Below are positions 11,900 through 31,573 of a stretch of DNA of 40,882 bases, one piece after another; within the stretch, counting starts at the first letter, position 1, and each line of letters starts with the position of its first letter. Below the pieces are notes generated by a model, which made no database searches, was not told the origin of the DNA, and saw only the letters and a program-made list of their open reading frames with translations. Both the position numbers and the translations under genes were made by a program. Origin of the DNA: a virus; IMG/VR virus record IMGVR_UViG_3300044825_002770, positions 1 through 40,882 of that record; one strand, written 5' to 3'.

Positions 11900-12238
11900 A
11901 TGGAATGGCTAAGAGAACATTTCCCCCTTGCATCGGCTCTGCTCGGGATTCTGACCACGGCGGGCGGCGGCGTTCTGGCTTTGTACCGGGTGCTTGCGGC
12001 GCGCGTGGATGAGAAAATGAGTGCGGCGGTTTCGATAGCGGTTAACGAAGCAGTGCAGGAAATTATGCTAGATTTTTCTCAGGTGCGGGAACGCGTGGCG
12101 GCGCTGGAAGCGCATTTCATGGACTCTAAAGAAGATATACAGGAAATCAAGGGAAAGCTGGACACGTTAGGCGGGCACGTTTTGCAACTGCCAGACAGAC
12201 TGGCCGAGGTACTGAAAAATGAAAAAGCTGATTCTTAA
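11900..12238 (+). CDS. Small membrane protein with coiled coil, lysis-region (holin-like candidate)
   Basis: A 112-residue protein. Residues 10-33 form one hydrophobic segment (ASALLGILTTAGGGVLALYRVLA). Residues 40-105 are a likely coiled coil (RERVAALEAHFMDSKEDIQEIKGKLDTLGGHV). The layout resembles small lysis-associated membrane proteins, but with the membrane segment at the N-terminus. GGGGA precedes the ATG. It overlaps the SGNH hydrolase gene by 20 bases. It could be a holin, a holin partner or a fibre-related anchor; the sequence does not decide. Confidence 0.45.
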   Translation: MEWLREHFPLASALLGILTTAGGGVLALYRVLAARVDEKMSAAVSIAVNEAVQEIMLDFSQVRERVAALEAHFMDSKEDIQEIKGKLDTLGGHVLQLPDRLAEVLKNEKADS

Positions 12239-12863
12239 ATTGCAAGCATGGTGGTACAAACGCAGACCGCAAAAGCGGCCGGGGTTCATTGACCTTTTGT
12301 TCAAGTTCCGGCTTGCACAGGCTGCACAGTTTGTCGGCAAAGCTTCGGTCCTGTGGTCCGGGGATTCCCGTTTTCACCAGGCGGAACCTCAGATAAATGA
12401 CACACCGGGCTGGCTGTGTCTTGCGGTTTCCGGGTCCACGGCAGATCCTGACGGTTTGAAATACGGGGCCGCGTTAACCGGCATTGTAAAGCCCCTTGCT
12501 ACCGTGATAGACTGGGACGGGAATGACTTTTTACAAGGCCGCGAAGTCAAAGACGTTTTGAATGCGCACCTTGCGGTCCGTGGGCGTATTGCTATGCAGG
12601 GCGGTTTTGTCCTGAGTCTGGAGCTGTGCCCGCTCGGGCTCCCTGCGGACAACCCGGTCAACGTCAAAATTGCGCGATTCAATGCCGCACTGGCCGCCGC
12701 CATAGGGCCGGACTTCGTGCCGGTGAATGACAAACTGGCCCCCGGCGGAACCATGCTGCAAAAATACGACAGCGGGGATCACATCCACTGGTCGGCAGCG
12801 GCCTTTGAAGACGCGGTTTTCCCGCGCGTGAAAGAAGCATTGAAAGCGCGGGGGATTGTATGA
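12219..12863 (+). CDS. SGNH/GDSL-family hydrolase
   Basis: A 214-residue protein with the four SGNH blocks visible: Ser50 in GDS (48-50), Gly72 (VSGST), Asn102 in WDGNDF, and Asp187/His190 in DHIHW. Enzymes of this fold are esterases, often removing acetyl groups from sugars. Placed between fibre and endolysin, it may trim acetylated host glycan or peptidoglycan. The first 30 residues are basic and aromatic (MKKLILKLQAWWYKRR) without a cleavable signal peptide. It may be virion-bound or act from inside. The substrate is unknown. Confidence 0.75.
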   Translation: MKKLILKLQAWWYKRRPQKRPGFIDLLFKFRLAQAAQFVGKASVLWSGDSRFHQAEPQINDTPGWLCLAVSGSTADPDGLKYGAALTGIVKPLATVIDWDGNDFLQGREVKDVLNAHLAVRGRIAMQGGFVLSLELCPLGLPADNPVNVKIARFNAALAAAIGPDFVPVNDKLAPGGTMLQKYDSGDHIHWSAAAFEDAVFPRVKEALKARGIV

Positions 12864-13585
12864 TTGCCACAGACAAGATAGAAGACTACTTCAATTTTAC
12901 GCACCCGCACCGGATCAGCCAGCCAGGAGCTTTTCAGCACCGCCTGGGGGCATTCCAGACCTGCGGCCGGGGTAAACGGCCCCGCCTGCCCTACCCGTCT
13001 ATCGGTGTTTTGCATGTTCCCGTCTACGACGCTGGCGGGCCTTCCGGGGATCTCACTGCGGAAATAGTGGCCGCCTACCTTGCGGACCCGCCGGAAAACC
13101 AGAACCCCGAGAAATACGGCCGCCGGTTTGCGTCCGTGCATGCATGCGCAGATCGCGACAGCTTCGTGCTATGCCTGCCGGCTGACGCGGTGTGCTGGGG
13201 CTGCGGCAATTTCAACACGGCAGAAGACTCCTGGGAAGTGGAAATTGCCGGGCTGTCCACGGAGCCGCCGGGGTACTGGGCCACCGAAGACGGTACAAAA
13301 AAGCTGATGCAAGCTGCCCGCGCTCACGTAGCGGCCGCGAAACTCGCTTTCGGGAATTCCTGGCGGCTCGGACTGGTACCCCCGCAGCTCGGGCAGGTAG
13401 ACGAAGCCGGGCGCGTTGCGCGCTCCGGATGGCTCCAACATCGGGATATTCCCTACTGGACGGGCACTAAATGGGCACAGCCCCCGGCAGACAACATCCG
13501 CGCGGGCCAGCATTCCGACATTTGCGCCGGTTTCCCGTGGATGCATTTTTTTGGAGTTCTGGCGGCGGAAATCAATAAGGGTTGA
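12860..13585 (+). CDS. Endolysin, N-acetylmuramoyl-L-alanine amidase-like
   Basis: A 241-residue protein with ATGA overlap on the hydrolase. It shows the amidase_2/PGRP pattern: strand with His52 (GVLHVPVY), then ASVHACADRDSFVLCLPAD and the ExxG-like SWEVEIAG, and late GWLQHRDIPYW (His194) and GQHSDICAGFPW (His218, Asp220, Cys222). These late residues correspond to zinc ligands in the family. It would cut the bond between MurNAc and L-Ala at lysis. It has no signal peptide, so it needs a holin. A terminator follows directly. The first 45 residues are not family-typical. Confidence 0.7.
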   Translation: MIATDKIEDYFNFTHPHRISQPGAFQHRLGAFQTCGRGKRPRLPYPSIGVLHVPVYDAGGPSGDLTAEIVAAYLADPPENQNPEKYGRRFASVHACADRDSFVLCLPADAVCWGCGNFNTAEDSWEVEIAGLSTEPPGYWATEDGTKKLMQAARAHVAAAKLAFGNSWRLGLVPPQLGQVDEAGRVARSGWLQHRDIPYWTGTKWAQPPADNIRAGQHSDICAGFPWMHFFGVLAAEINKG

Positions 13586-14942: not shown

Positions 14943-15542
14943 TTATTTCTCCTTGTGCTTCTCACACATCGCTAACAAAGTGTCTTTCCAATCACGCCAG
15001 AAGCGCTGGGCATGCTGGTCCATTCTGTCTATCCGTGCGTCGTTAAACGCTGCCCATTCTTTATGCGGGTGGAATTCGCATCCTATCTGCATGTGATTGT
15101 CCCAAATAGTAACAAACCAGCGCAGATTCCCGATTTGTATCGGCGCTTTCGTGACTGAGATTTTCTTACCGTCTGCGCCCCTTAGGACTGCGCCCATTAG
15201 GACTGCGCCCCTTAGGACTGCGCCCCTTAGGTCTGCGCCCGTTAGGTCTGTGCGCGTTAGGACTGCGCCCGTTAGGTCTGCGCCCGTTAGGACTGCGCCC
15301 ATTAGGACTGCGCCCCTTAGGACTGCGCCCGTTAGGTCTGCGCCCGTTAGGTCTGCGCCCGTTAGGACTGCGCCCGTTAGGTCTGCGCCCGTTAGGTCTG
15401 CGTCCGTTAGGACTGTGCGCGTTAGGTCTGCGCCCCTTAGGTCTGCGCCCCTTAGGTCTGCGCGCTCGCCCCCGGCCGCGCCCTCCATCCATCTCCTGTG
15501 ATTCAGCAGGATTTCCTGCAAACGTTTAACTGTGATTTTCAT
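14943..15542 (-). CDS. Pentapeptide-repeat protein
   Basis: A 199-residue protein. Residues 1-27 are a short non-repeat start. Residues 28-125 are about 20 tandem pentapeptides of the ADLTG/AVLRG type, which form a right-handed quadrilateral beta-helix. The last 70 residues (APIQIGNLRWFVTIWDNHMQIGCEFHPHKEW) are a C-terminal region common to phage pentapeptide proteins. Such proteins may mimic DNA or act as scaffolds; no specific target is evident. ATG is preceded by an AT-rich divergent region with inverted repeats. Confidence 0.85.
   Translation of the reverse strand: MKITVKRLQEILLNHRRWMEGAAGGERADLRGADLRGADLTRTVLTDADLTGADLTGAVLTGADLTGADLTGAVLRGAVLMGAVLTGADLTGAVLTRTDLTGADLRGAVLRGAVLMGAVLRGADGKKISVTKAPIQIGNLRWFVTIWDNHMQIGCEFHPHKEWAAFNDARIDRMDQHAQRFWRDWKDTLLAMCEKHKEK
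15172..15465. repeat. 15-bp tandem repeat array (pentapeptide coding)
   Basis: About 20 units of GTTAGGTCTGCGCCC and close variants (CTTAGGACTGCGCCC, ATTAGGACTGCGCCC). The period of 15 bases equals five codons. Units differ mainly at the first base and at GGT/GGA. Because the period is a multiple of three and no unit holds a stop, other frames also stay open here on both strands. Those long open frames are by-products. Confidence 0.95.
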
Positions 15543-15651: not shown

Positions 15652-15836
15652 CAAAAGGAACAAATACAGTAAGCACGGAGTCAGCAAAACTACTTGTAGA
15701 AAGGTACTTGAAATCAGAGGGGGACAACCCCCAGCCTACAACAGAGCAGATAGACAAAACATTAGAAGCTGGCGCTGATGCCTATGGTTCACAAGACGCT
15801 TTTATTCAAGTATTAAAAAAACACTTTGGGGTGTAG
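15639..15836 (+). CDS. Small acidic protein, unknown
   Basis: A 65-residue protein. The ATG at 15639 lacks a clear ribosome site; a second ATG at 15645 is also possible. The sequence reads as two or three helices (SAKLLVERYLKSEG; TEQIDKTLEAGADAYGSQDAFIQVLKKHFGV). It shares its first bases (AACAAAAGGAACA) with the next gene, which starts 2 bases after its stop. I do not recognise the family. Confidence 0.6.
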   Translation: MSMKTKGTNTVSTESAKLLVERYLKSEGDNPQPTTEQIDKTLEAGADAYGSQDAFIQVLKKHFGV

Positions 15837-15838
15837 AG

Positions 15839-16279
15839 ATGGAAACAAAAGGAACAGAAAGGATTTTGACCGGTCGGTTCTTTCGCGAACCGCTCAAGGT
15901 TTTTCTGGCGGCGTTGAATGTCGCTGCCGTGGAAAGCCGGAAGCTGACGCAGACAGAACGGGCCATCAAAAAAGTAGAATACAGCCTGGAACATGATTTC
16001 CGGGAAGGGTTCGCACCGCGCGAACACAAGTTAGACGCGTACAGCCTCGCAGGCCGTGAACTTGCAAGACTGGAAACGGCCAATATCGAAGATTTGAAAA
16101 TCGCAAAAATTACGCAGGTACGCGCACAGCTGAAAGCGGCTGAAACGCTGGTCGCGGAACTTCAGCGCATACTTGCAGAATTGGACAACGAAAGGGGTCC
16201 TACGGTATTCCTGGAGCGTCAACGGGAGTTTCGTGAAGCCCGCGAAGGAAGGGGTAAAAAGCGGGCGGTCGCTGTATGA
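15839..16279 (+). CDS. Helical protein, unknown function
   Basis: A 146-residue protein predicted almost wholly helical. Residues 75-125 look like a coiled coil (DLKIAKITQVRAQLKAAETLVAELQRILAEL), and the C-terminus is basic (EGRGKKRAVAV). The start is 2 bases after the preceding stop. It overlaps the RmlD-like gene by ATGA, so the three genes 15639-17088 form one operon. I recognise no family. It may be a structural or regulatory partner of the neighbouring genes. Confidence 0.6.
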   Translation: METKGTERILTGRFFREPLKVFLAALNVAAVESRKLTQTERAIKKVEYSLEHDFREGFAPREHKLDAYSLAGRELARLETANIEDLKIAKITQVRAQLKAAETLVAELQRILAELDNERGPTVFLERQREFREAREGRGKKRAVAV

Positions 16280-17088
16280 TTCTGCTCATTGGTGGACGCG
16301 GGCAGCTCGGGCAGGCGTTGCAAAACGCCCTGCCCGAAAACTCTTTCGTGCTGGCCCCTCCTGTAATTGGCAACATGTGGGCAATTTGTGACATGGCCCG
16401 CAGACCGGAAATTGAAACGGTCATAAATTGCGCCGCGTGGACGGACGTCCGGGGAGCAGAAAACCCGGAAAACTGGCTGACCGTGGATCTGCTAAACGTA
16501 GCGTTTCCCGGAACTCTGGCGAGGATCTGCCGCGACCACGGCAAGCGGTTTATAACGTTTTCAACTGACTATGTATTCGACGGCGCGAAGCGGGAACCGT
16601 ACACCCCGGAAGACCGGCCGAACCCTATTAACCGATATGGACTGTCGAAATACGCGGGAGAAGTGATTTGCAGAAACACCGGGGCGGTTATCATCCGCAC
16701 CGCCGGCCTGTTCTCACCGTACGGTCCGAATTTCGTACACACGATTTTTGACCGTCTGCGGGTGCAAGGCGTGGTCAATGTCACAACGGCGCTGACTACC
16801 AACGTGACCAGCGCGGACAGCCTCGCAAGAGCTGTAGCGCGTACGTTAGAGTTTGCCACTACACCACCGGGAACCTACCACTACACGGACCCCGAGCCGG
16901 TCACCTGGTATGACGTAGCCGCCCAGGTAGCCGGTGCTATGGGTTTAGCACCGGACGCAGTCAGACCCACGGAAAAGGGGGACGGGGTCACCCGGCCGCT
17001 TTTCTCTGCGCTGTGGTGCCCGGTGTTTGATCAGAACTGGCGGGACGAAGTGGCGCGCGTGGTGGGGATCTTCAAAGCGAGGACTTAA
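16276..17088 (+). CDS. RmlD-like NDP-4-keto-sugar reductase
   Basis: A 270-residue extended SDR enzyme. Visible motifs are the cofactor loop GGRGQLG (6-12), the active-site strand STDYVFDG (96-103) and the catalytic YGLSK (Tyr121, Lys125). The C-terminal RPLFSALW resembles the RP-S-L motif of RmlD. RmlD reduces dTDP-4-keto-rhamnose with NAD(P)H; here the substrate may be another 4-keto sugar. Its likely partners are the C-methyltransferase and glycosyltransferase 1.6-4.3 kb to the right on the other strand. It converges with the recombinase by a 17-base overlap. Confidence 0.85.
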   Translation: MILLIGGRGQLGQALQNALPENSFVLAPPVIGNMWAICDMARRPEIETVINCAAWTDVRGAENPENWLTVDLLNVAFPGTLARICRDHGKRFITFSTDYVFDGAKREPYTPEDRPNPINRYGLSKYAGEVICRNTGAVIIRTAGLFSPYGPNFVHTIFDRLRVQGVVNVTTALTTNVTSADSLARAVARTLEFATTPPGTYHYTDPEPVTWYDVAAQVAGAMGLAPDAVRPTEKGDGVTRPLFSALWCPVFDQNWRDEVARVVGIFKART

Positions 17089-17896
17089 GTATGTCGGCGC
17101 TGGACAACTGCGTGTGAGCGTAGAAAGCCAGCGTTGTACTTGTCTGGCTGTGCCGGGCAAACCGTGACACCGCGTCGAGCGGCTCCCCCTGCTCCAGCAA
17201 ATGCGTAATTCGGGAATGCCTCATAGTATGCGGGTGCATGTTCCGGCCCAGCACCTGCCTGGATACTTTGCTCATAACGTGGCCCATGTGCTGCCGGGTG
17301 TAAGGTTTCCCGTTATGCTCAAACAGGTAGACCCTGCCCCCGTACGTTTTCCGGATCTGCGCAAAAAGCTTCTTTGAAATGGTCAGAATGCCGGCTTTGC
17401 TGCCTTTACCCACTACAGCGGCAAGTACCGCGCCCCGATCCTCTTTGCAGTCTTTCAACCGAATAGACAGCCCCTCGGACACCCGCGCGCCGGTATCATA
17501 CAGGAGCCGGGCAAACAGCCCCACGTGTTTCGGGGCTTTTGCCAGGAAGCGGCGCACTTCAGCCCGGCTGAAAATGTAACTGGAATGCACCCGCAATTCT
17601 GTTTTCGGAAGTTTGATTTCACGGAACAACGCGTCAAAACTCGCCCGCACACGGGAGTCATGCGAGGGGTACGCAGCGAGCAAAGCAGATTTGACGGCTA
17701 CTTTGTGCAGGGCGATAGTCCGCGCGGAGTAGCCGCGTTGCTTCTCCATTGCGAAAAACTCCCGTACGGTTTCCTCATTGATCGGCTGGCCGGCGGCGAA
17801 TTCATTGAACCGCCGCACCGTGAGCGCGTAGTCTTTATGTCGTGGCACGGGGAGCTGTGCCGGGGCGTTCTGTACAGTTAGCGCGTTCTCTTCCAT
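17072..17896 (-). CDS. Tyrosine recombinase / integrase
   Basis: A 274-residue protein if started at the ATG at 17896; a longer frame runs back to 17980 but overlaps the neighbour far more. The catalytic set is complete: Arg138 (TGARVSE), Lys164/167 (GKGSK), His223 and Arg226 (HTMRHS), His249 (ARHSQ) and Tyr259 (FYAH). The first 100 residues match the SAM-like core-binding domain (RRFNEFAAG). It could integrate the phage or resolve genome dimers, as XerC-like enzymes do. No excisionase or attachment site was recognised. Confidence 0.85.
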   Translation of the reverse strand: MEENALTVQNAPAQLPVPRHKDYALTVRRFNEFAAGQPINEETVREFFAMEKQRGYSARTIALHKVAVKSALLAAYPSHDSRVRASFDALFREIKLPKTELRVHSSYIFSRAEVRRFLAKAPKHVGLFARLLYDTGARVSEGLSIRLKDCKEDRGAVLAAVVGKGSKAGILTISKKLFAQIRKTYGGRVYLFEHNGKPYTRQHMGHVMSKVSRQVLGRNMHPHTMRHSRITHLLEQGEPLDAVSRFARHSQTSTTLAFYAHTQLSSADILKSSL

Positions 17897-18438
17897 ACCG
17901 TAAACCACCGGGCCCGGCCATTCCGACCGGTGCCCACAGCAACCGCTGCAATTTCCTTTGCGCCCTTCGCGCTGGGCCATGCATAATCTATGACGCCGAC
18001 GTGCCCGTCAGTCAGACGCAAGCAATCCGCCAGGAGCTTGTTTAGATCGGGCAGCACGTCCGGCCCGCACCGGTAGTTTTTTGCATCCTCCACCGAATAC
18101 GGCCGGTCGATTAAAATGGCGTTGGGTGAAAAAGATAGCCCGTCTATCTTCCGCGCATCCATTAAAATGTCGGGTTTGCACAACGGGTCAATATCCAGCG
18201 TCAGGTCATTCTTTCCGAATCCGCTTAGAGTGATTCCGCCCTTCTTGCCGTTGTAGTTTTTCGCGTGGCCGCCGCAGACGTGCAAAATGCAGGCGTCAGG
18301 ATTGCCGCCCACCAGCATCGGCCGCGCGCGCTCAAGGAATCCGGCAGGATACGCGCCGTAGTAGGTCCGCCCGGTCTCGGGGTCTTTTGTTTTTGAACGT
18401 CCAAGAATCCAGACGTCTGTGATTGGTCGATAGCTCAT
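17878..18438 (-). CDS. Class I methyltransferase-like protein with DRPY motif
   Basis: A 186-residue protein. It has an N-terminal WILGRSK and YYGAYPAGFLERA, a motif I-like strand (CILHVCGGH, 51-58), an acidic strand LTLDID (79-84), and IDRPYS (110-115) in the place of DPPY of N6-adenine methyltransferases. It ends ARWFTVWKR. The fold is probably a SAM methyltransferase, but Arg replaces the first Pro of the catalytic motif, so activity is uncertain. It overlaps the recombinase gene by 19 bases. It may be a DNA methyltransferase or a degenerate relative. Confidence 0.65.
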   Translation of the reverse strand: MSYRPITDVWILGRSKTKDPETGRTYYGAYPAGFLERARPMLVGGNPDACILHVCGGHAKNYNGKKGGITLSGFGKNDLTLDIDPLCKPDILMDARKIDGLSFSPNAILIDRPYSVEDAKNYRCGPDVLPDLNKLLADCLRLTDGHVGVIDYAWPSAKGAKEIAAVAVGTGRNGRARWFTVWKRTR

Positions 18439-18477
18439 ATCAGAGTAAACTTTACATAAGTAGACATTTTGGAAAGT

Positions 18478-18513
18478 GAAAAAAAGGGCCCCCTGCGCTA
18501 ACAGAAGGGCCCT
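18478..18513 (-). terminator. Rho-independent terminator, leftward
   Basis: On the minus strand AGGGCCC pairs with GGGCCCT, extended by two G-T pairs and followed by seven T (18484-18478). It is only about 40 bases from the start of the 18438 gene, so that gene needs a promoter in the short space between. Confidence 0.8.
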
Positions 18514-18612
18514 AGCCGGCGCAAATTCGCCCCCGGATCGTAACCCGAGGGGAGCCGCAGTTCCCTGCGGGGTGGAAGAGACAAGAATAGTTCAAACGTG
18601 GAGAGCTTCAAG
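18514..18612. other. Structured intergenic stretch between two terminators
   Basis: No ORF with a ribosome site is seen. Hairpins visible by eye are CCGCAG-TTCC-CTGCGG (18555-18570) and a CCCC/GGGG pairing around 18530-18553. With a strong leftward terminator on each side, the stretch could encode a small RNA, or it may only be a transcription barrier. I found no tRNA fold. Confidence 0.4.
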
Positions 18613-18651
18613 AAAAAAAGGGCCCCTGTGCGCAGGGAAAACACAGGGGCC
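18613..18651 (-). terminator. Rho-independent terminator after C-methyltransferase gene, leftward
   Basis: GGCCCCTGTG and CACAGGGGCC form a perfect 10-bp stem with an 11-base loop. On the minus strand seven T follow. It lies 26 bases past the stop of the 18677 gene. Confidence 0.9.
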
Positions 18652-18676
18652 GAAGTAATGGAGGAACAAAAAGGAA

Positions 18677-19897
18677 CTACAGGGACAGAATCAGCCCCTT
18701 GAACCCGAGGGAACGTAGACGCGCGGACAGAGCCCCGGTCAGGTTGCGCGACAGGATGACCGCAACGTCAGCCCACGCGACAGTCTCCGGGCTCATCGGA
18801 TTGATTTCTAGATTCGTGCCAGGTGAAAACTTGCCCTGTTTTTCCGGGGTGTCATCTACCAGATAGAGCAAGGACAGCGGGTCCAGCCCGTGCACTGTCT
18901 GGGCGAAATTCAAAAACACGTTAGATTTTGCGGACGCCGTAACGCCTATTATATCGCTGTAAGGCGCAATCATTTGCAGCATGGTTTTGACCCTGGCTAC
19001 GTCCAAATCTACGCCTTGATTGAACTCCACAATCCAGCCAGGGGAGAAAAACGCCTTCTCCTGTGCGATCATGTCCACGCATGCGGGTGCATGATCGAAA
19101 CCGGTACCGGGCCGCAGCCAGAACCGCAAAGTGCCGCAGTGAATCGCAGGAAAGAAAACCACGTTTGCCACGTCGAACCCGTGCCGCCCCGCCAGCGCAG
19201 TCATGGCCGTAACGCTCCAATAGCTTACATGCTCATGGTAAATGGTGTCAAAAGCGCGGTTCTCAATCATGGCTTTGAAGCTCGGGACTTCGATAACAAA
19301 AAGCCCGTCTTCATCTATAGAAGAACGTACCGCGCGGAAAAAATCGTGTATGTCGTCAACATGGCCGACCACGTTTTGAGCGATAAACGCGCCCGCGTAA
19401 CCGTGCTTGCGCACAAACCAGACAGCCGTGTCTGTGTTCCAGAAGTCTTTGACTTTCACGTAGTCCGCAGGAGCGTCATCCTGGGCAACGTCTACAACAA
19501 AGCCCCGCGCGTCAGGGATGACCGCCAGGACTTCCCGCATGCATGCCCCGTCATTGCCGGCGATGTCAACCACGGACCCGATGCCCATCGAATGCACGGC
19601 GGCAACCCGCAGAGATTCAGCAAGCCCCGCGCAATGTTCGCGGAAAACGCCGGACACAGACGATTTGTACACGTAGTCCTTATATAGCACTTCAGGACTG
19701 ACCACAAGCGACAGCTGCCCGAGTTTGCAGCTGTGACAGGTCATAAGGCGCTGTTCATAACGCGGGGCGTTCAAAGCGCTTTCGCGGTCAGGCTGCAGAC
19801 CGTTAGACAGGGGCATTCTCCCGAAGTCCATAACTTCCGTAAGCGGGCCGCCGCATACTCTGCATTCTGTGTGTGGGTGTGTCTGTTTGTATTCCAT
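18677..19897 (-). CDS. NDP-hexose C-methyltransferase (NovU/TylC3/TcaB9-like)
   Basis: A 406-residue protein with all three domains of the family. The N-terminal zinc site is C12xxC15 and C54xxC57. The SAM domain includes VVDIAGND (109-116), and the catalytic segment YHEHVSY (220-226) has the Tyr, Glu and His positions of TcaB9. The C-terminal domain has DDTPEKQGKFSPGT (348-361). These enzymes methylate the C3 of NDP-4-keto-deoxysugars to give branched sugars. GGAGAAAAGG lies before the ATG. It ends in a strong terminator and is the last gene of the leftward operon. Confidence 0.9.
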   Translation of the reverse strand: MEYKQTHPHTECRVCGGPLTEVMDFGRMPLSNGLQPDRESALNAPRYEQRLMTCHSCKLGQLSLVVSPEVLYKDYVYKSSVSGVFREHCAGLAESLRVAAVHSMGIGSVVDIAGNDGACMREVLAVIPDARGFVVDVAQDDAPADYVKVKDFWNTDTAVWFVRKHGYAGAFIAQNVVGHVDDIHDFFRAVRSSIDEDGLFVIEVPSFKAMIENRAFDTIYHEHVSYWSVTAMTALAGRHGFDVANVVFFPAIHCGTLRFWLRPGTGFDHAPACVDMIAQEKAFFSPGWIVEFNQGVDLDVARVKTMLQMIAPYSDIIGVTASAKSNVFLNFAQTVHGLDPLSLLYLVDDTPEKQGKFSPGTNLEINPMSPETVAWADVAVILSRNLTGALSARLRSLGFKGLILSL

Positions 19898-19912
19898 GTT
19901 TTTCCTTTTCTC

Positions 19913-20101
19913 CTACTTTACGTCCGGCATTTCTTTCCATCTTCTCAAAAAACGAGTGATCTCCTGGAAGAACTCAATTTTGAATTCTTCTGCGGCCCAC
20001 TCGTCGGGAAGTGTGATTTCTTGTATGTGTGAATCCCCGAGACCTTCACCGTTCAATTCCCACAGATTGCAGTCTACCTCGATTTTTATGGGCTTTTTCA
20101 T
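19913..20101 (-). CDS. Small acidic protein, unknown
   Basis: A 62-residue protein. The ATG at 20101 is chosen because GGAGAAAAGG precedes it in exactly the arrangement seen at 19897; the longer frame overlaps the glycosyltransferase end. The sequence is acidic with aromatic positions (NLWELNGEGL; TLPDEWAAEEFKIEFFQEI). No family is recognised. It is sandwiched between the glycosyltransferase and the C-methyltransferase, so a partner role in sugar transfer is possible. Confidence 0.6.
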   Translation of the reverse strand: MKKPIKIEVDCNLWELNGEGLGDSHIQEITLPDEWAAEEFKIEFFQEITRFLRRWKEMPDVK

Positions 20102-20123
20102 GTTTTTCCTTTTCTCCTTTGTC

Positions 20124-21398
20124 TCAGTTATGCACAAGCAAAACGCCGGGCACAAGCTTGAATCTCTGCCAGCCCCCGTTTTCCTGTGCAATCTTGTTTA
20201 AGTACGTCCAATCAGATGAATGACTGTAATCAGGCCAGCCCGCTTTCCCGGCCAGCTCCGCGCGTACCATTACACCCGCGCAGTCTATAAAACCCCGCCG
20301 GGGGCTCACCTGAATTATGTTGTACCCGTCTTCCACGTTCTGCTTTCCGGGCTGCGGAACCTGACCGGGAAAGCCCGCGTAGTTGTGGACCATTGCAGAA
20401 CAATAAGCCCCCGGCGCGTCCGGGTTGTCATCTAACGCCTTGACCAGCTTCTCCAGATAAAAAGGCGCGTGGTAGTTGTCGTGATTCGTGACCACTACAT
20501 AAGTGCCCTGAATCTTTCCAGTTTTGATCTTCTCCAGGTACTGTTCCCGGATCGGATGCCCGTAGTGTTTGCGCGGGCCCGGCTCCTCTATAAAATGAAT
20601 GCGCTTGTCTTCGTAGCGCGGGAAATCATTAGGAGCCGGGCCGTCATGCACCAGGTACAATTCCCAGTTGTGATAAGTCTGGGCGAGCATTGAAGGGACC
20701 AGCACCGGGTGTGTCTCGTACGCGGTTGCAATCACAATCACTTTAGAACCCTTCGCTTTCAGGTTCCAGACCTTTTCAAACTCCTGCCGGCGGTTGATCC
20801 AGCCATGCCCGCCGCCGCCGCTGTCCCAGGCGGAAGACTCCCGAAGCGCTGCAATCTGCACGGCTTTGAGTCCTGCCCCCAGCACCTGTTCCCGCAGGGT
20901 GTGCGGCCCACGATGTTCGAACCGGTAGCACTCTTCTTTAGTGCGCACAGGGTCCACAGGGAATTTGAGTTTTTCTGCAAGCTCCTTTCGCAGCATAAAC
21001 CCGGTTGTCCTGACATGTGTTTTGATCTGTGAAGAGATTTCCAGACACGTAAGGCCGCATAACGGATCTTTGAACGGAGCGAGGTAGTCCGCCACGAAGG
21101 AAGGTTTCATTGCAAAACAATCGTCCGTGAACCATAGCAAGTATTCGTAATTGTAGTCAAACCCGGCCAGACGCTTTCTGCACACGTCCTGGAAAGCCCC
21201 GATGTCCATGCCGACATTCTGCCGGGGGATGTAACGCGCTCCGGCGGCCTCTACTCTGGCCCGCACTTCCGGCGACGGGATTTCACAGTTGTGAATAACT
21301 GTGAAAGTGACCCCGTCGCGCGGTACCTGGGCAAAGATCGACAGCCAGTAGTCCAGATTTTTCATCCGGTTATAAACGAGAACAACGACGGAAACCAC
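20124..21398 (-). CDS. Two-domain GT2-type glycosyltransferase
   Basis: A protein of about 424 residues. The GTG at 21398 suits the AAGGAG site, while a TTG at 21404 overlaps the preceding stop. The N-terminal half has SVVVLVYNRMKNLDYWL and the acidic motif WFTDDCF. The C-terminal half has a second start (KVIVIATAYETHPVLVPSMLAQTYHNWELYLVHDG) and TNHDNYHAPFYLEKL, so two GT-A domains are fused. It would transfer a sugar from a nucleotide donor to an acceptor not identifiable here. The C-methyltransferase downstream and the RmlD-like enzyme could supply the donor. Confidence 0.85.
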   Translation of the reverse strand: MVSVVVLVYNRMKNLDYWLSIFAQVPRDGVTFTVIHNCEIPSPEVRARVEAAGARYIPRQNVGMDIGAFQDVCRKRLAGFDYNYEYLLWFTDDCFAMKPSFVADYLAPFKDPLCGLTCLEISSQIKTHVRTTGFMLRKELAEKLKFPVDPVRTKEECYRFEHRGPHTLREQVLGAGLKAVQIAALRESSAWDSGGGGHGWINRRQEFEKVWNLKAKGSKVIVIATAYETHPVLVPSMLAQTYHNWELYLVHDGPAPNDFPRYEDKRIHFIEEPGPRKHYGHPIREQYLEKIKTGKIQGTYVVVTNHDNYHAPFYLEKLVKALDDNPDAPGAYCSAMVHNYAGFPGQVPQPGKQNVEDGYNIIQVSPRRGFIDCAGVMVRAELAGKAGWPDYSHSSDWTYLNKIAQENGGWQRFKLVPGVLLVHN

Positions 21399-21400
21399 TG

Positions 21401-21625
21401 TCAACGCTCCTTTTTGAGCCCCGGTCTAAAATCGGGTGTCAGTAATTCGAAACCTTCAGGAGTTCGTTTTTCTCCCCCCGCGTTTCTTCGGTCACATTCT
21501 TCCTGAATGAGAACCATGCCCGCAGAAATCCGAGCGTCCTGCAAATACAGAACGAAACTGCCGGACTCGTCCCCGATACACGGTACCCACGTTTCTCCGA
21601 TCTGCGCAATGCCTGCTTTTATCAT
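21401..21625 (-). CDS. Small protein, unknown
   Basis: A 74-residue protein from the ATG at 21625, placed 8 bases after AGGAG; a TTG at 21631 is the alternative. The sequence has strands (GETWVPCIGDESGSFVLYLQD) and ends RPGLKKER, the codons of which contain the ribosome site for the glycosyltransferase. No family is recognised. It belongs to the tightly packed leftward operon. Confidence 0.55.
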   Translation of the reverse strand: MIKAGIAQIGETWVPCIGDESGSFVLYLQDARISAGMVLIQEECDRRNAGGEKRTPEGFELLTPDFRPGLKKER

Positions 21626-21627
21626 GT

Positions 21628-21819
21628 TCAACGCTCCTGTTTTATGACTGGCTGGCAGCGGCTTTCCACTCTGACCAGCGGGTCCGTCTGGATCATGTGA
21701 AGCCAGACCCGCTGGCGTTCACCTTCGCAGGCGGCTAACGTTTCAAAGACTGCCTGTCTGCGGTCCTCTTCTCCCGAAGGGAAAATCAGAAGAACTGTAA
21801 AAATCCATGCTGTAATCAT
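21628..21819 (-). CDS. Small protein with N-terminal hydrophobic segment
   Basis: A 63-residue protein whose ATG overlaps the preceding stop as ATGA. Residues 1-14 (MITAWIFTVLLIFP) are hydrophobic and may be a signal or membrane anchor. The rest is charged with two Cys (LAACEGERQR; ESRCQPVIKQER). Secretion to the periplasm is possible. The function is unknown. Its last codons hold the next gene's ribosome site. Confidence 0.5.
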   Translation of the reverse strand: MITAWIFTVLLIFPSGEEDRRQAVFETLAACEGERQRVWLHMIQTDPLVRVESRCQPVIKQER

Positions 21820-22037
21820 GGCGCCCCCTTGTCCAGACCGGTCAGCATGTACTGGGCACGGCGCTGGTCGTTCAAGTCAATCTGCCGGCGAAGCTCTAAC
21901 GCTTCGTCAAGTGCTTCCGGGAAACTGCACCCGGTAGTCTGCACAGCGCCTTTTCCATGCAAGGCCCCGCGCATGTGCCCCGATTCCCATTTTCTGCCAG
22001 GCGTGTCATACACCTGCCTGATTTGTTCTACTCTCAT
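21816..22037 (-). CDS. Small protein, unknown
   Basis: A 73-residue protein with ATGA overlaps on both sides, directly after the primase-helicase. AAGGA lies about 9 bases before the ATG. It includes GRKWESGHMRGALHGKGAVQTTGCSF and a helical stretch (PEALDEALELRRQIDLNDQRRAQY). I do not recognise it. The coupling to the replication gene suggests shared regulation rather than shared function. Confidence 0.55.
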   Translation of the reverse strand: MRVEQIRQVYDTPGRKWESGHMRGALHGKGAVQTTGCSFPEALDEALELRRQIDLNDQRRAQYMLTGLDKGAP

Positions 22038-24160
22038 CGTGTTTTTCCTTTTTTGAATTTCTCTGCGGATTGAATGACGTTGTCCTTCATGTACAGGCGG
22101 GAATGTTTTCCTTCGCGGTGGACTTCGCGCATGAAAAACCCGTTTTCACGGAGCCAGATTGCGGCCTGTTTCTGGGAAAATCTGACGTTAGACGCGTGGG
22201 CGCTGTCCTGTATCCGCTCGGCCATACTGCGAATCGTAAAGCCTGCCCGAAAGAAATCTTGATAGGCGGGGTCGTGCAAACACTCGTCAAGGAAAATGGT
22301 CAATTCGTTCTTGCTGTAGGACCGAAGCTCAATTTTGGATTCAGTGACCGGCGGGGGCGCGTTTACGTGCAGTTTGTCCGCGTACCCTTCCAGATAGTCG
22401 ATGATTGAAAAAAGCCCCTCATCAAAAGTCTGTAAGAGCGTCTCATAATACCCGGTTGACTGCGGCTTTTTACGGTTCACGATAATGAAAAACCGGCGGT
22501 CTGTGGCGCTGATCGGGAGCGCGTTCACGGCATTTGAAAAGAATATGAAATTGCAGAAATTCTCTATTTCAAAGGAACGGACGTACTTGTCAGAGATCCT
22601 GACGCGCGGTTCTGTGATCCAGTTTTTCAACTGGTCGAGCACCGCGAATTTCTCAGACTGCCCCAGCTCATGCACGAAGGTAAGAAACTTGGATTCAATC
22701 CAGGCATTGTTCCCCCGTGCTACTTCAGTGTTTGACGTACTGACCACATAGGACGCGCCCGACACCGCCTGCAGAACCTTTTCAGACAGGTGCTGCAAAA
22801 CGCTCTTCCCGATGCCCTCATATGTAGAAATCAAAAGCAGTGCATGCTTGATCTTCTTCCCCGGTCTTAGCAATGCGCAGGCAAGGAACTTCCGCAGGTG
22901 CTCGAATTCTTCCTCCGTGTTCGTCAGATAACGCAGATGCGTTTCAAACGTTTTCACGTCGGTCTTGCGCACCTTCGATTTTTCCACCTGGGCGATCGGC
23001 TCAAAAGTATTGTAGAACGTAACTCCGGCGGTGTCAAATTCCTGCGGCTCTTCCGGCCGGAATGCCAGGCGGTCCCGAAGGGATACAAGCCGGAAAGTCA
23101 GAACGTATTTCAGCGAGGTCTTGACCCCGGTTGCATAACACACCGCGTTTTCGATCTGGCCCGGCTTTGTGTAGCGCAAACCGGTTTTCGCGTTGATCAA
23201 GATTTCCGCTTCCGCTATGTACACAAAGTCAGACAGAAGCTCTGCAATGCGGCAATCCTCTTCAAACTTGACTGCCATGCGCTCCGGCTTCTCTGCCAGA
23301 TAGCGCCCTGGCGGGTGTTTCGCGTAACGATAAGCGCTGACGGTCTGGTGTGAAACTACAGACGCGGACTCGGGCGGATCACAGAAAAGGTCATTGAATT
23401 TCTGTACAATGCCGAGCGCGGTTTTCTCATCTACAGCAAAGTCACGGCAGCGCAGGGCGAATTGATACAATGCCTGAGAGCGTCCACCGCCGCTGGTGAT
23501 TTTCGGCCGGTCTTTAAGCAGGATGTTCTCAAGCCCCGCGCCTGTTACAACCGGAGCAGGTGCGGCCTTCTCCGCTTTCTCCTGTTTCACTCCGGCAAAC
23601 GCGGACAGCGGGTAACGGGTCCGGGGCATGGTGCCAAGCTGGTAGCCGGGCCCGGTCTTCCCCTTCTTCTTGTGCGCGGTGTAGGGTACCCGCATTAACG
23701 CAGCCGGGTGCGCGGGCAAAACGTCAGCGTCTACAAGTTTCGCAATACGCTTCAATGTCTGTTCATACCCGGCAAAATCCGTCTGCGGTTTGTCTAACAG
23801 ATAGTAGACATGCCAGCGGTCAGCACGCGTGAAACTCCATGAAGGGACCGGAAGGCCCTTGCCCGTGAAATACGCGGCAGGGTCTTCAAAACGTTTCTGG
23901 TCAAAATCGAAATGCAGAATACCGATTGCAGCTAACGCAGACTTTCCACGGCCTTTGCCGTTCTTCTGCACGGTGCCCGGTTTGTAGGTGGCCACGGTGT
24001 AAAAAAGTTCCTGGCTGAAATCCAGCTTCTTTGACTTGAGCTTTTCAACCGGTACGATTTCACACTTGAACGGAGACAGGCGGGAGACTAAAACCGCGTC
24101 CCCGGTGCAGCCTGCGTAGACGTCGGACAAAAACGCTGCAGTGATTTCGCGGTTATTCAT
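22034..24160 (-). CDS. Primase-helicase (AEP-type primase plus D5-like SF3 helicase)
   Basis: A 708-residue protein. The ATG at 24160 is chosen for its ATGA overlap with the polymerase stop. The N-terminal domain has HFDFD (Asp85, Asp87) and RWHVYYLL (His117), like archaeo-eukaryotic-type primases, followed by MRVPYTAHKK. The C-terminal domain has the P-loop YEGIGKS (447-453), FVHELG as a Walker B-like strand (495-500), and FFSNAVNALPISATDRRFFII with the sensor Asn543 and Arg555/556. This combination primes and unwinds the phage origin. The neighbour upstream is the polymerase. Confidence 0.85.
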   Translation of the reverse strand: MNNREITAAFLSDVYAGCTGDAVLVSRLSPFKCEIVPVEKLKSKKLDFSQELFYTVATYKPGTVQKNGKGRGKSALAAIGILHFDFDQKRFEDPAAYFTGKGLPVPSWSFTRADRWHVYYLLDKPQTDFAGYEQTLKRIAKLVDADVLPAHPAALMRVPYTAHKKKGKTGPGYQLGTMPRTRYPLSAFAGVKQEKAEKAAPAPVVTGAGLENILLKDRPKITSGGGRSQALYQFALRCRDFAVDEKTALGIVQKFNDLFCDPPESASVVSHQTVSAYRYAKHPPGRYLAEKPERMAVKFEEDCRIAELLSDFVYIAEAEILINAKTGLRYTKPGQIENAVCYATGVKTSLKYVLTFRLVSLRDRLAFRPEEPQEFDTAGVTFYNTFEPIAQVEKSKVRKTDVKTFETHLRYLTNTEEEFEHLRKFLACALLRPGKKIKHALLLISTYEGIGKSVLQHLSEKVLQAVSGASYVVSTSNTEVARGNNAWIESKFLTFVHELGQSEKFAVLDQLKNWITEPRVRISDKYVRSFEIENFCNFIFFSNAVNALPISATDRRFFIIVNRKKPQSTGYYETLLQTFDEGLFSIIDYLEGYADKLHVNAPPPVTESKIELRSYSKNELTIFLDECLHDPAYQDFFRAGFTIRSMAERIQDSAHASNVRFSQKQAAIWLRENGFFMREVHREGKHSRLYMKDNVIQSAEKFKKGKTR

Positions 24161-26076
24161 TTGACTTTGTCCCCTTTGTGGAATGACGTGCAAACCACAG
24201 TTTTGGAATTCACCGGCATTCCGGGCAACCACGGAACCGACGCCCGCATGATTTTTTCGATGCGCGAAACCCTGCCGCCGGGGGCACTGACGTTCAATTC
24301 GTCGTGAATAATCAACTTGACCGACGCGAAAGGCTGAATTGCCAGAGCTTTTTCTACGGACACGTCAAACGCCACAGCCTGCACCAGATTTTCGTAGAAC
24401 CCGCCGGGGCGCGCTGTCGTCCGAAAGCCTTTCCGGGGCTCCAGATAGGAGAAAGTTTTCCAGCCTTTTGTTCCTGCCGTTTCAACACGGCAGTCTGCGT
24501 AATGTTTGACCCGGCCGGACGGCAGCGCCACAGCCAGCCCGGTTTTGCCGCCCAGGACAACCCGCGAAAAGCCGATGTTGTGGACCTTACAGAATGCCCC
24601 CGTTTCCAGTACCCCCACGGCAGCCTTTATCAGATTGAACCAGACCCGCTTAACGCTCGGGTTTCTCCGGTGGTAGCCGTCAAGAATCCGGCCGGCTTCT
24701 GCTTCTCCGGGGTCTGGCATTCCATAGGACCGGATTTGTGCCCGCAAGCGGTCGGGACCCATTCCGTAGCAGGCCGCCAGGATGACGATTTTGGACAGAT
24801 TGCGGGAAATCTCGGCCGGGAACCCCATCGCATCCCCAAAAATGGTGTATTCGTCCTTTCCGGCGCCGGCGTCTGCGGCCCGGTATATTTCGAGCGTCTG
24901 CAAATCGTCACGTATCCACGCGCCCACGCGGGGCTCAATGGCTGACAGGTCCGACCGGACCATGAATTGCCGGGGGTCCGGGGACAGGCAGGCCCACAGA
25001 AGTGAGGAAAGCCGCTTGACCCGCTCCCCGCGTTTGCCGGTCTTCAGGATTCGCCGGATAGAATCCGCACAATGCAAAGAATCGTCCCCAAACCCGGCCC
25101 GCTTGACGTTCAAAAGATTGATACCGCCGCCGGCCGGCCGGCCGGTGTGCGTCCCGTAGAAAATACTTGAATCGTAAATGCGGGAAAGCTTGTTTTCTAC
25201 AATCAGCCTGAGCTTGTCCGCTCCCCGGCTCTGGATCTCTCTATAGAAGGAAATCAGATTCAGGCAATCTTTCGGCAGCTTCGCCCCGCGTTCTGCCAGA
25301 AAATCCTCAAGGTCTTTCTCTGCTATGCTGTCTACCGGGTACCCATGGGCGGCCAGGTATTTTTTGACCTGGTCCGCGCTGGCCGCAACCGGGCTTTTGT
25401 CTTTCCCGTAGGTGCCGAAGGCCCGCGCTGCGGCTTTGCGCGCTTTGTCTTTCTCCTGTAAAATGCACGCATACAGAGACTGCGCGCGGGGCTGGTTAAC
25501 CAGAATGGGACTCTGATTCATGCGGTTAATCATGCCGTGCATTTTGACCGCGTACGGGTCCATGCTCCCCGGTTTCGTAAGTACGTTGTACAACTTGCGT
25601 AGAAGATTCACGTCCTGCTTGTTGTACTGCTCAAGGGCCTTTTTTTCCACGCGCTCAAGCGGCGCACCTTCGCGCAGCTTTTTCAAAATGGTCTTGCCAG
25701 CGTCGAGCTTTTGCCCGAGCCCGAAATAAGCGGCAGCACCGTCAAGGGACGCGGGCACCGAATAATAACGGCACAGGGCCGCCGTGTCTATCCATTCAAA
25801 AGAACCGCGGAACACCTTTCCAAAAACAGCACGGTCGAAGTCTGCGTTGTGCGCTACAAACAACGTGCCCGGTTTTGCAGAGCTGCGCAGACTCATAAGC
25901 GCGTTGTAAGGCGCGTTGTTGGCAGGCCCCAGCGCGTATTGAATGCGCCCGGAACCGACAGCCCAGGCAACGGAAACAACGCGGAAATCCTTCCCATTCA
26001 CGTAAGCAGTAGGACCCAGGGAAATGTCAACGTCAGAGTATGTTTCAAAGTCGATAAAGATGACAGGGGGTTTCAT
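24157..26076 (-). CDS. Family A DNA polymerase with 3'-5' exonuclease
   Basis: A 639-residue protein. The exonuclease motifs are FIDFET (Asp9, Glu11), HNADFD (77-81) and YNKQDV (Asp155). Polymerase motif A is RSDLSAIEPR (374-383), motif B RNLSKIVILAACYGMG (425-440) and motif C IHDELNV (590-596). All catalytic residues are present, so it should be an active proofreading replicase. There is no 5' nuclease domain. It is transcribed with the primase-helicase and ssDNA-binding genes. Confidence 0.92.
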   Translation of the reverse strand: MKPPVIFIDFETYSDVDISLGPTAYVNGKDFRVVSVAWAVGSGRIQYALGPANNAPYNALMSLRSSAKPGTLFVAHNADFDRAVFGKVFRGSFEWIDTAALCRYYSVPASLDGAAAYFGLGQKLDAGKTILKKLREGAPLERVEKKALEQYNKQDVNLLRKLYNVLTKPGSMDPYAVKMHGMINRMNQSPILVNQPRAQSLYACILQEKDKARKAAARAFGTYGKDKSPVAASADQVKKYLAAHGYPVDSIAEKDLEDFLAERGAKLPKDCLNLISFYREIQSRGADKLRLIVENKLSRIYDSSIFYGTHTGRPAGGGINLLNVKRAGFGDDSLHCADSIRRILKTGKRGERVKRLSSLLWACLSPDPRQFMVRSDLSAIEPRVGAWIRDDLQTLEIYRAADAGAGKDEYTIFGDAMGFPAEISRNLSKIVILAACYGMGPDRLRAQIRSYGMPDPGEAEAGRILDGYHRRNPSVKRVWFNLIKAAVGVLETGAFCKVHNIGFSRVVLGGKTGLAVALPSGRVKHYADCRVETAGTKGWKTFSYLEPRKGFRTTARPGGFYENLVQAVAFDVSVEKALAIQPFASVKLIIHDELNVSAPGGRVSRIEKIMRASVPWLPGMPVNSKTVVCTSFHKGDKVK

Positions 26077-28263: not shown

Positions 28264-29016
28264 TTAATTTTTTCTTTTCAATATGGGTATGGCCGTCGCT
28301 TCTTTTAACCGCCTGTGAATTGTCTTCACATAAAGAGCGTCTTTTTCTATTAGAATGAAATTACGCCCCGCGTGGACACATGCAACCCCCGTTGTACCCG
28401 AGCCCGCGGCATTATCAAGAACGACGCCGCCAACATTTGTGTACGTGCGAATCAGATACTCGAACAGCGCCACAGGTTTCTGTGTTGGGTGGGTGGTTTT
28501 TCCCTCGCTCGCAAATTCAAGAATAGATCTTGGATAACCCGTGGCGGCTCTGATATGAACTTGTGCGGATTTTCCGAAGTTTCCGCCGTTATGCGATTTT
28601 CCTCTGTTCACTTCTTTTCCATAAGGGATTAGACCCTGTGGGTTATAGACCGTTTGTCCACACGCAAAAACTAAAATGTCCTCATGCTCCCGCATCGGCC
28701 GGCGTTTTGCGTCCAGATGCCCAGTGGGTCTTGTTTTTTTCCATACCCACGAATACCGGAGCCAGCTAAGATTTGATGCGCCTAGCTGAGATGTGAACGG
28801 TTGGGCGCACGTCAGCACAATTACGCCGTTTTTCTTGATAACTCGTTTATACTCTTTCCAGAGCGGTTCAAGCGGAATTATGCTGTCCCACTTATTCTGT
28901 GTCGTGCCATAAGGGAGGTCACACAGAACCATGTCAATAGACCCGGTTTCAATACTCGGGAGGGCTTCCAGACAATCGGCATGCATCACATTATCATAAA
29001 AATTTTTCTTTTTCAT
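28264..29016 (-). CDS. DNA methyltransferase, beta-class arrangement (DLPY)
   Basis: A 250-residue protein. Catalytic motif IV DLPYG (33-37) comes first, and the SAM motif NAAGSGTTGVAC comes near the C-terminus, preceded by HPTQKPVALFEYLIRTY. This order is typical of beta-class N4-cytosine or N6-adenine methyltransferases. There is no companion restriction enzyme, so it may protect phage DNA. Its ATG overlaps the helicase stop by ATGA. Target bases cannot be read from the sequence. Confidence 0.88.
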   Translation of the reverse strand: MKKKNFYDNVMHADCLEALPSIETGSIDMVLCDLPYGTTQNKWDSIIPLEPLWKEYKRVIKKNGVIVLTCAQPFTSQLGASNLSWLRYSWVWKKTRPTGHLDAKRRPMREHEDILVFACGQTVYNPQGLIPYGKEVNRGKSHNGGNFGKSAQVHIRAATGYPRSILEFASEGKTTHPTQKPVALFEYLIRTYTNVGGVVLDNAAGSGTTGVACVHAGRNFILIEKDALYVKTIHRRLKEATAIPILKRKN

Positions 29017-31372: not shown

Positions 31373-31573
31373 ATGGGATTCACAAAGCTAGACCCGGCAC
31401 AATTGCCGGCAAAAAAAGAAGGATGGACGAAAGCAGAACTTGCAGCGCGTTACAAAACGTCTCTCAATGTTATAGCTGTCTGGTTTTCACGTCTGCGGAA
31501 AACGAAACAATACACTGTGGAGCGTGTGCGGACGCCTGACCGTTACATAGTGCGCAGAGCAAAGAAGAAATGA
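31373..31573 (+). CDS. Helix-turn-helix protein at head of late operon
   Basis: A 66-residue protein from the ATG at 31373; a GTG at 31355 is also open. WTKAELAARYKTSLNVIAVWFSRLRK looks like a helix-turn-helix, followed by a strand pair (QYTVERVRTPDRYIVRRAKKK) that would form a wing. It is basic, so DNA binding is likely. It may regulate the control region or take part in packaging. No ribosome site is obvious. It overlaps the next gene by ATGA. Confidence 0.6.
   Translation: MGFTKLDPAQLPAKKEGWTKAELAARYKTSLNVIAVWFSRLRKTKQYTVERVRTPDRYIVRRAKKK

Follow-up and report, generated by a model that had tools for sequence, protein, structure and literature searches.

Three sugar genes in a phage genome, encoding an RmlD-family reductase, a sugar C-methyltransferase (CMT) and a double glycosyltransferase (GT), raise the question of whether a virus can build and attach a branched deoxysugar of its own and, if so, what it would attach it to. 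Most C-methylated deoxysugars known so far come from antibiotics, with a few from the surface glycans of bacteria. The stretch of DNA analysed here, hereafter the window, is the complete IMG/VR virus record IMGVR_UViG_3300044825_002770 (40,882 nucleotides), which has a direct terminal repeat of 233 bp and, among its genes, matches to tail-sheath, baseplate and portal proteins; a megablast search with the window against public phages gave no match. The gene identities given in a preliminary description of this DNA (RmlD-like, NovU-type CMT and double GT2) are borne out by Pfam domains, PDB matches and an AlphaFold2 model (Table 1).

Table 1. The sugar genes of the window and the features around them.
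Feature	Position	Strand	Remarks
146-aa gene (context, outside the set)	15839..16279	+	no family match; ATGA overlap couples it to RmlD
RmlD-family reductase	16276..17088	+	270 aa; PF04321 4.8e-52, TIGR01214 163 bits, PDB 1vl0 4.7e-23
Tyrosine recombinase/integrase (between RmlD and CMT, outside the set)	17072..17980	-	PF00589 3.6e-20, phrog_1 1.3e-28
phrog_3816 'DNA methyltransferase'-type protein (between RmlD and CMT, outside the set)	17878..18438	-	1.2e-40
Two GC-rich hairpins with T runs, immediately 3' of CMT (likely terminators)	18489..18638	-	hairpins 18638-18623 and 18508-18489
Sugar C-methyltransferase (CMT)	18677..19897	-	406 aa; PF08421 + PF13489 + PF08484; MtmC and TcaB9 matches
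Small ORF between GT and CMT	19913..20101	-	62 aa; read from sequence
Double GT-A glycosyltransferase (GT)	20124..21398 (21404 with alternative start)	-	~424 aa; AlphaFold2 model, K4CP match, PF00535

The CMT is, by its domains (PF08421, 2.1e-15; PF13489, 4e-8; PF08484, 4.6e-11), a complete sugar C-methyltransferase of the TylCIII/MtmC/TcaB9 type, and its best PDB matches are the D-mycarose 3-C-methyltransferase MtmC (4rv9, 8.4e-45) and TcaB9 (3ndi, 1.3e-37). The four cysteines of the Zn site (C12, C15, C54 and C57) are invariant among the phage relatives, as are the catalytic-type residues Y220, E222, H223 and H179, and the SAM loop is present. The YHEH motif at residues 220-223 aligns with IYDEH in TcaB9 and IYHEH in MtmC, and the YxEH residues are presumably the catalytic ones. 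The window CMT shares its arrangement of domains, the cysteines of the Zn site and the YxEH motif with TylCIII, MtmC, TcaB9 and NovU, in whose pathways (to mycarose, mithramycin, tetronitrose and novobiose) a CMT is likewise paired with a 4-reductase of the RmlD/SDR type and a GT. These enzymes belong to chromosomal antibiotic clusters that have their own dehydratase and nucleotidyltransferase and act on small-molecule acceptors, whereas the phage set is minimal, has a double GT of the GT-A type and, in relatives, a fusion of RmlD with the CMT, and precursor genes were not found with it (see below).

Only the C-terminal half of the GT is reached by the Pfam GT2 family (PF00535, 2.3e-6). Its AlphaFold2 model (pLDDT 86) aligns over the whole length with the chondroitin polymerase K4CP, which has two GT-A domains (2z86, 8.9e-17), so the name 'double GT2' is right: the GT consists, according to the model, of two GT-A domains (N-domain, ~residues 1-215; C-domain, ~220-426). 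T93-D94-D95 and N307-x-D309-N310, candidates for the acidic metal/nucleotide motif of each domain, are invariant in 10 relatives; the second departs from the canonical DxD. As read from the sequence, the gene starts with the GTG at 21398 behind AAGGAG, or alternatively with the TTG at 21404. Single-sequence patterns made from the window RmlD, GT or terminase found no close relatives in viral contigs, and alignments were required.

The reductase has the features of the RmlD family, namely the nucleotide-binding loop GGRGQLG and Y121xxxK125, and its key residues are invariant in alignment A5. Since the TIGR01214 score of 163 bits lies below the equivalog cut-off of 224, the protein is placed by its sequence in the RmlD family, and its identity as the rhamnose enzyme is unsupported. 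It is nearer to ordinary bacterial RmlD (85 bits, PDB 1vl0) than to the RmlDs of the cassettes described below (at most 49 bits), and no companion rmlA, rmlB or rmlC could be recognised in the window ORFs that were searched, the model searches being for the rmlA and rmlB types. Another phage-borne RmlD, about 31% identical to that of the window, belongs to the rmlBACD operon of Phapecoctavirus, which encodes a complete rhamnose pathway and has no CMT in the 10.7-kb stretch around it.

A single operon of RmlD, CMT and GT was considered for the window and rejected: the RmlD is encoded on the other strand, and the integrase and the phrog_3816 gene, neither of them mentioned in the preliminary description, lie in between. 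It forms a different transcription unit from GT and CMT, so that differing expression times of the three genes are a live worry. The 62-aa ORF and the CMT have an identical ribosome-binding leader (GGAGAAAAGGAAAAACATG), and the two hairpins behind the CMT are likely to be the terminators of a GT-CMT unit; terminator-like sites are in no excess in the region (10 versus 9.5 in shuffles), and none of the others has a T tail as long as those of this pair.

Do the three genes nevertheless belong together? As far as genes in contigs can tell, dozens of uncultured phages have the same small set. Among 53 loci with the GT N-domain (52 viral and one from a MAG, where it lies on a phage contig; at 80% identity they form 36 clusters), a CMT adjoins the N-domain in 46 (31 of the 36 clusters), as against 2 of the 42 loci with the C-domain only, figures that lean upward because the seeds of the GT profile were partly picked for their proximity to a CMT. 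Two of the seven N-domain loci without a CMT are cut by a contig end. An RmlD-type reductase stands alongside the CMT in 21 of the 53 loci, 12 of which encode a single RmlD-CMT fusion protein, these per-locus counts still including near-related contigs and most records being fragments. Within the 12 first-round GT relatives, a PF08484 CMT was found in 11, and in five a PF04321 reductase separates the CMT from the GT. Co-occurrence and fusions thus bear out the functional link that had been proposed between reductase, CMT and double GT, and a functional unit is supported, judging from the relatives. One could suppose that glycan genes simply collect in phage hotspots and that the three are passive hitch-hikers without a common path. 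Further GTs and methyltransferases are indeed frequent in the same stretches, but the linkage tracks the N-domain only and the RmlD-CMT fusions are hard to reconcile with such an origin, which makes it very unlikely.

A related phage (L041/L096), whose portal, head and sheath proteins are 54%, 62% and 63% identical to those of the window, has the terminase and portal genes separated by a row of four, SDR-CMT-GT-GT2. The SDR of this phage belongs to a different family (PF01370), and the CMT does not group with the main clade of cassette CMTs (AU p 0.00017), from which it appears that reductase and CMT were joined to the GT more than once. The tree also puts the window CMT outside this clade, on a long branch; the AU test does not reject its membership (p 0.64).

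Another possibility is that only GT and CMT are paired in the window and that the RmlD is an unrelated accessory near the integrase, the 4-ketoreduction being carried out by the CMT or by a host reductase. The window RmlD, on its opposite strand, is outside the cassette RmlD lineage, and a recognised reductase is missing from about half of the cassettes. Moreover, 4-ketoreductase activity has been reported for a C-methyltransferase of S. argillaceus (PMC3539893), and MtmC is the best PDB match of the window CMT. Since 21 of the 53 loci do have a reductase, in 12 of them as a fusion with the CMT, and the nearest relative phage has an SDR of a different sort, we regard this pairing of two genes alone as unlikely.

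How would the three enzymes be supplied? The window ORFs searched include no recognisable 4,6-dehydratase, and neither a separate 4,6-dehydratase nor an NTP_transferase (PF00483) was found in 43 related records; PF16363 matches, taken as candidates for a dedicated dehydratase in relatives, proved to be the RmlD domains themselves or the SDR of L041. Because dehydratase and nucleotidyltransferase genes were not found in the 43 records, the host is the probable source of the precursor; the preliminary description had already supposed that the dehydratase would be the host's.

We think it fairly probable that the cassette serves to make a 6-deoxyhexose branched by C-methylation and to transfer it, most likely to a virion protein. 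The host would give an NDP-4-keto-6-deoxyhexose, probably dTDP-4-keto-6-deoxyglucose, the product of RmlA/RmlB. The CMT would place the methyl group of SAM beside the 4-keto group, at C3 if it acts like MtmC and TcaB9, its closest characterised relatives, or possibly at C5, like NovU. The RmlD-family reductase would next reduce the 4-keto group, and the product would be a virenose-type NDP-C-methyl-6-deoxyhexose. This sugar would then be transferred by the N-terminal GT-A domain, probably to a first sugar that the C-terminal GT2 domain had added, and the final acceptor would carry a one- or two-sugar cap. In this scheme we infer the nucleotide of the substrate, the carbon methylated, the order of the steps, the acceptor and the role in the set of the window's separate RmlD.

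The same order, in which an NDP-4-keto-6-deoxyhexose undergoes C3 methylation and then 4-keto reduction, is the route proposed in silico for virenose in Coxiella burnetii (PMC3539893). Virenose is a cellular LPS sugar, and that work did not identify a 4-ketoreductase for the TDP route, whereas a reductase is supplied by many of the phage cassettes. The operon of Synechococcus phage DSL-LC02 (OR032571), known from its genes, differs in that it follows the GDP route and brings a dehydratase of its own, different GTs and a distant CMT (24% identity). In chlorovirus PBCV-1, a single protein, A064R, has two GT domains together with a methyltransferase for sugars and acts on the capsid glycan (PMC7019647); it O-methylates a rhamnose in the glycan and belongs to a eukaryotic virus.

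As to the acceptor, a virion protein seems most likely from the positions of the genes, because many of the relatives have their cassette in the neighbourhood of structural and packaging genes (31 of the 53 have a terminase, portal or capsid gene at most 6 kb away on the same strand). In mycobacteriophage virions, capsid and tail proteins are glycosylated by phage-encoded means (Freeman et al. 2023, as cited in PMC12619734); the portion of PMC12619734 dealing with it does not describe the CMT/RmlD pairing. Alternatively, the same biosynthesis could serve to change a host surface glycan (LPS core, O-antigen, S-layer or wall polymer) in infection or lysogeny against superinfection, as has been the interpretation of pelagimyophage glycosyltransferases (PMC7029224). 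An integrase adjoins the set, and the GT and CMT of the window are downstream of the replication genes and outside the late genes. We nevertheless hold a host-surface acceptor to be possible but rather unlikely, given that a GtrA-type flippase was not found in the window or in 21 related records, that the GT is predicted to have two GT-A domains only and no membrane domain, and that in many relatives the cassette is within the terminase-portal-capsid module. Serotype conversion of the Gtr type, of which this flippase was taken as the marker, finds no support in the same search.

Phage DNA, glycosylated against restriction, had also been put forward as the target. Some glycosyltransferases of viruses are known to hypermodify DNA (works cited in PMC12619734), and there are two DNA-methylase-type genes in the phage. 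Yet neither a thymidylate-synthase-type nor a Tet/JBP base-modifying gene was found in the window or its nearest relative; PF00303 (base hydroxymethylase type) was not found in the 21 related records either, a Tet/JBP gene was present in G038 only, and the GT resembles GT-A polysaccharide synthases. The gene content thus makes DNA an unlikely target, and a sugar that shields it from restriction extremely improbable.

C-methylated sugars had been called rare in phage biology, which needs correcting: viral contigs are not short of CMT-family genes (at least 598 stretches have one), although these are scarce in public phages (5 of 50,697 records) and a literature search found no phage paper on them. 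The full-length GT was found once in 84,980 cellular genomes, and the contig concerned is that of a phage, with a major head protein gene next to the GT. It may be, and we propose it tentatively, that a widespread phage-specific system decorates virions with a C-methylated deoxysugar by means of a dedicated GT-A domain nearly always tied to a CMT and often to an RmlD (as a fused two-step enzyme in many phages), a system assembled more than once with different reductases and with no cellular counterpart in the 84,980 genomes. A conserved phage C-methyl-sugar cassette with its own transferase would, if true, bring a new chemical class into virus glycobiology, and the concrete prediction is a branched 6-deoxyhexose on the particles of cassette phages. 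The RmlD-CMT fusions would be natural enzymes for making branched sugars; the predicted structure of one has a mean pLDDT of 73.5, its reductase half being poor. An example of such a fusion is encoded at L107:11357-13300.

The three genes of the set named in the preliminary description are all real, as judged from Pfam, TIGRFAM and PDB matches and from a structural model of the glycosyltransferase. The RmlD-family reductase (RmlD) falls under the TIGR01214 cut-off of 224 bits, and its best PDB relative is 1vl0 (4.7e-23). The sugar C-methyltransferase (CMT) is closest in the PDB to the D-mycarose 3-C-methyltransferase 4rv9 (8.4e-45) and to TcaB9 (1.3e-37), with both of which its YHEH motif is in register. 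Along its entire length, the AlphaFold2 model of the double glycosyltransferase (GT; pLDDT 86.2, pTM 0.55) aligns with chondroitin polymerase K4CP, a two-domain enzyme (8.9e-17); SpsA, which has a single domain and binds dTDP, matches at 2.7e-11. The span of 16276-21398 proposed for the set does contain these genes, but it also encloses two unrelated ones, for an integrase and phrog_3816. Since the strands are opposite and these genes intervene, the trio was rejected as a single operon in this phage. The leftward order behind the primase and polymerase is GT, a 62-aa ORF and CMT. Two hairpins with long T tails lie 3' of CMT, the regional number of such sites being not above that in shuffles.

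Features of the window and of related loci (L-numbers; G038 is the record holding L166)
Feature	Position	Strand	Remark
Direct terminal repeat	1-233 = 40650-40882		233 bp, exact
GDSL/SGNH hydrolase match	12219-12863	+	weak
Amidase-like gene	12860-13585		
Pentapeptide-repeat protein	14943-15542	-	near-perfect 15-bp DNA repeats; most of opposite strand also open
Uncharacterised gene	15839-16279		joined to RmlD by ATGA
RmlD-like	16276-17088	+	PF04321 4.8e-52; TIGR01214 163 bits
Integrase	17072-17980	-	tail to tail with RmlD
phrog_3816 DNA-methylase-type gene	17878-18438	-	next after integrase
CMT	18677-19897	-	PF08421 + PF13489 + PF08484
GT	20124-21398	-	Pfam match on C-terminal half only
DNA-methylase-type gene	28264-29016	-	PF01555
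Small basic ORF	31570-31947	+	ahead of terminase
RmlD-CMT fusions (alignment A6)	L101, L107, L128, L146, L147, L162, L166, L170, L171, L175, L177, L183		about 640 aa
Small cassette neighbour	L104:6419-6979, L128:5551-6072, L147:732-1265, L159:13048-13605, L166:13227-13757, L168:8713-9270, L179:13451-13996		~175-190 aa
Class I methyltransferase-like gene	L149:11309-12067, L158:11228-12004, L097:11221-11916		between GT and CMT
Tet/JBP-type dioxygenase	G038:16096-16503		sole such match among 22 records

A CMT-based scan of viral contigs gave at least 598 related stretches, and among the best 80, which were examined, is L041 (43 kb), whose structural proteins are related to those of the window phage (portal 54%, head 62%, sheath 57-63%). 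Its double GT, 48% identical to that of the window, adjoins a CMT, as does a 38%-identical one in L014 (59.8 kb); the order in L041, on one strand, is terminase, SDR (PF01370), CMT, GT, second GT2, (small gene), portal. A scan with GT alignment A1 gave 12 long relatives, with a CMT (PF08484) in 11 of the 12 records and an RmlD-type reductase (PF04321) between GT and CMT in five. L101 and L107 encode the two enzymes together, as a single protein of 647-648 aa.

In a second scan, ten GTs (A3) served as queries, and the loci were read with GT, CMT and RmlD profiles. A CMT was present in 46/53 loci carrying the N-domain of the GT (all viral except L128, which is from the cellular collection) and in 2/42 C-domain-only loci (Fisher p = 4e-17, kinship uncorrected), counts to be read with the profile seeds partly picked for nearness to a CMT and many records being fragments. 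Two of the seven N-domain loci without CMT (L164, L178) are cut by a contig edge, and one of the C-domain-only loci with CMT, L183, has an apparent GT fragment ahead of an RmlD-CMT fusion. Clustering at 80% identity left 36 N-domain clusters, 31 with CMT; RmlD occurs in 21 of the 53 loci, CMT-fused in 12. The CMT tracks the N-domain even where the GT domains are encoded as two genes (L175, L177) or where proteins of 760-1,207 aa combine the N-domain with other sequence (L165-L171), and this domain is therefore likely to be the transferase for a C-methylated sugar.

Among cellular genomes (84,980 species, exact peptide patterns, for which "not found" does not equal "absent"), there were 16 GT relatives, only one full length. 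This one, L128, lies in a Bacteroidetes MAG on a contig of 7.5 kb, which is judged to be phage DNA because a major head protein lies upstream and a head-tail adaptor downstream; in the others, the match is confined to the C-terminal GT2 domain.

The set was apparently put together more than once. In the CMT tree, 37 of 40 cassette CMTs cluster together; that of L041 lies outside the main group (AU p 0.00017), and membership of the long-branched window CMT is not rejected (AU p 0.64). Reductases also vary, most being short RmlDs and that of L041 an Epimerase-family SDR. That different parts fill the same roles favours a functional link over mere co-inheritance. The window RmlD, of ordinary type, is closer to 1vl0 (85 bits) than to the cassette RmlDs (at most 49 bits), and it may be an unrelated accessory gene.

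The pathway would run from an NDP-4-keto-6-deoxyhexose through C3 methylation to 4-keto reduction (methylated carbon and nucleotide presumptive), an order also proposed for TDP-D-virenose (PMC3539893). In agreement with the earlier view that the 4,6-dehydratase is absent and host-supplied, the dehydratase model had no match in 43 records beyond the RmlD domains and the SDR of L041, and NTP_transferase (PF00483) was found in none of them; the host should therefore supply the precursor. Cassettes without a reductase could be explained by CMT-borne 4-ketoreductase activity, such as that reported for the S. argillaceus C-methyltransferase (PMC3539893). Cyanophage DSL-LC02 has a GDP version of the route and encodes its own dehydratase, and Phapecoctavirus encodes rmlBACD.

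As to the acceptor, a virion protein has close to an even chance: in 31/53 cassettes (examples confirmed with PHROGs), the same strand carries terminase, portal or capsid genes no more than 6 kb away, against 7/42 C-domain-only loci, a soft contrast as 15 of the 42 are cellular. Terminase-portal junctions can serve as insertion hotspots too, and in the window GT-CMT is placed in the replication half. That placement would suit a sugar on the host surface; such a target is rather unlikely, and no GtrA, expected of Gtr-type surface conversion, was found in the window or 21 related records. Phage DNA, a possible target in the preliminary description, is highly improbable: PF00303 was found in neither the window nor 21 related records, and the window gave no Tet/JBP match. 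The two DNA-methylase-type genes are candidates for restriction evasion independent of the sugar set.

Open-licence papers gave no account of a phage cassette with C-methyltransferase/RmlD, C-methylated sugars or NDP-hexose-3-C-methyltransferase, and the giant-virus glycan papers examined do not mention a C-methyl sugar. Since sugar-nucleotide genes and GTs are already known in phages, the cassette is a variant on a known theme.

Some relatives carry further genes (table). The small cassette neighbour is GT2-like by eye, which suggests a longer glycan in phages carrying it. L189, L190, L192 and L193 have three C-terminal-type GT2 genes in tandem near a terminase gene, without CMT.

The window is an entire IMG/VR virus record of 40,882 bases and its terminal repeat makes it probable that the genome is complete, with either circular permutation or repeated ends. 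Matches to tail sheath, baseplate, portal, DNA polymerase and primase are those of a contractile-tailed phage; bases 15800-24300 had no megablast match in 50,697 public phage records. The gene with the weak GDSL/SGNH hydrolase match, beside tail and amidase-like genes, could encode a virion carbohydrate esterase, and the small basic ORF resembles, by eye, a Vsr/DUF559-type endonuclease.
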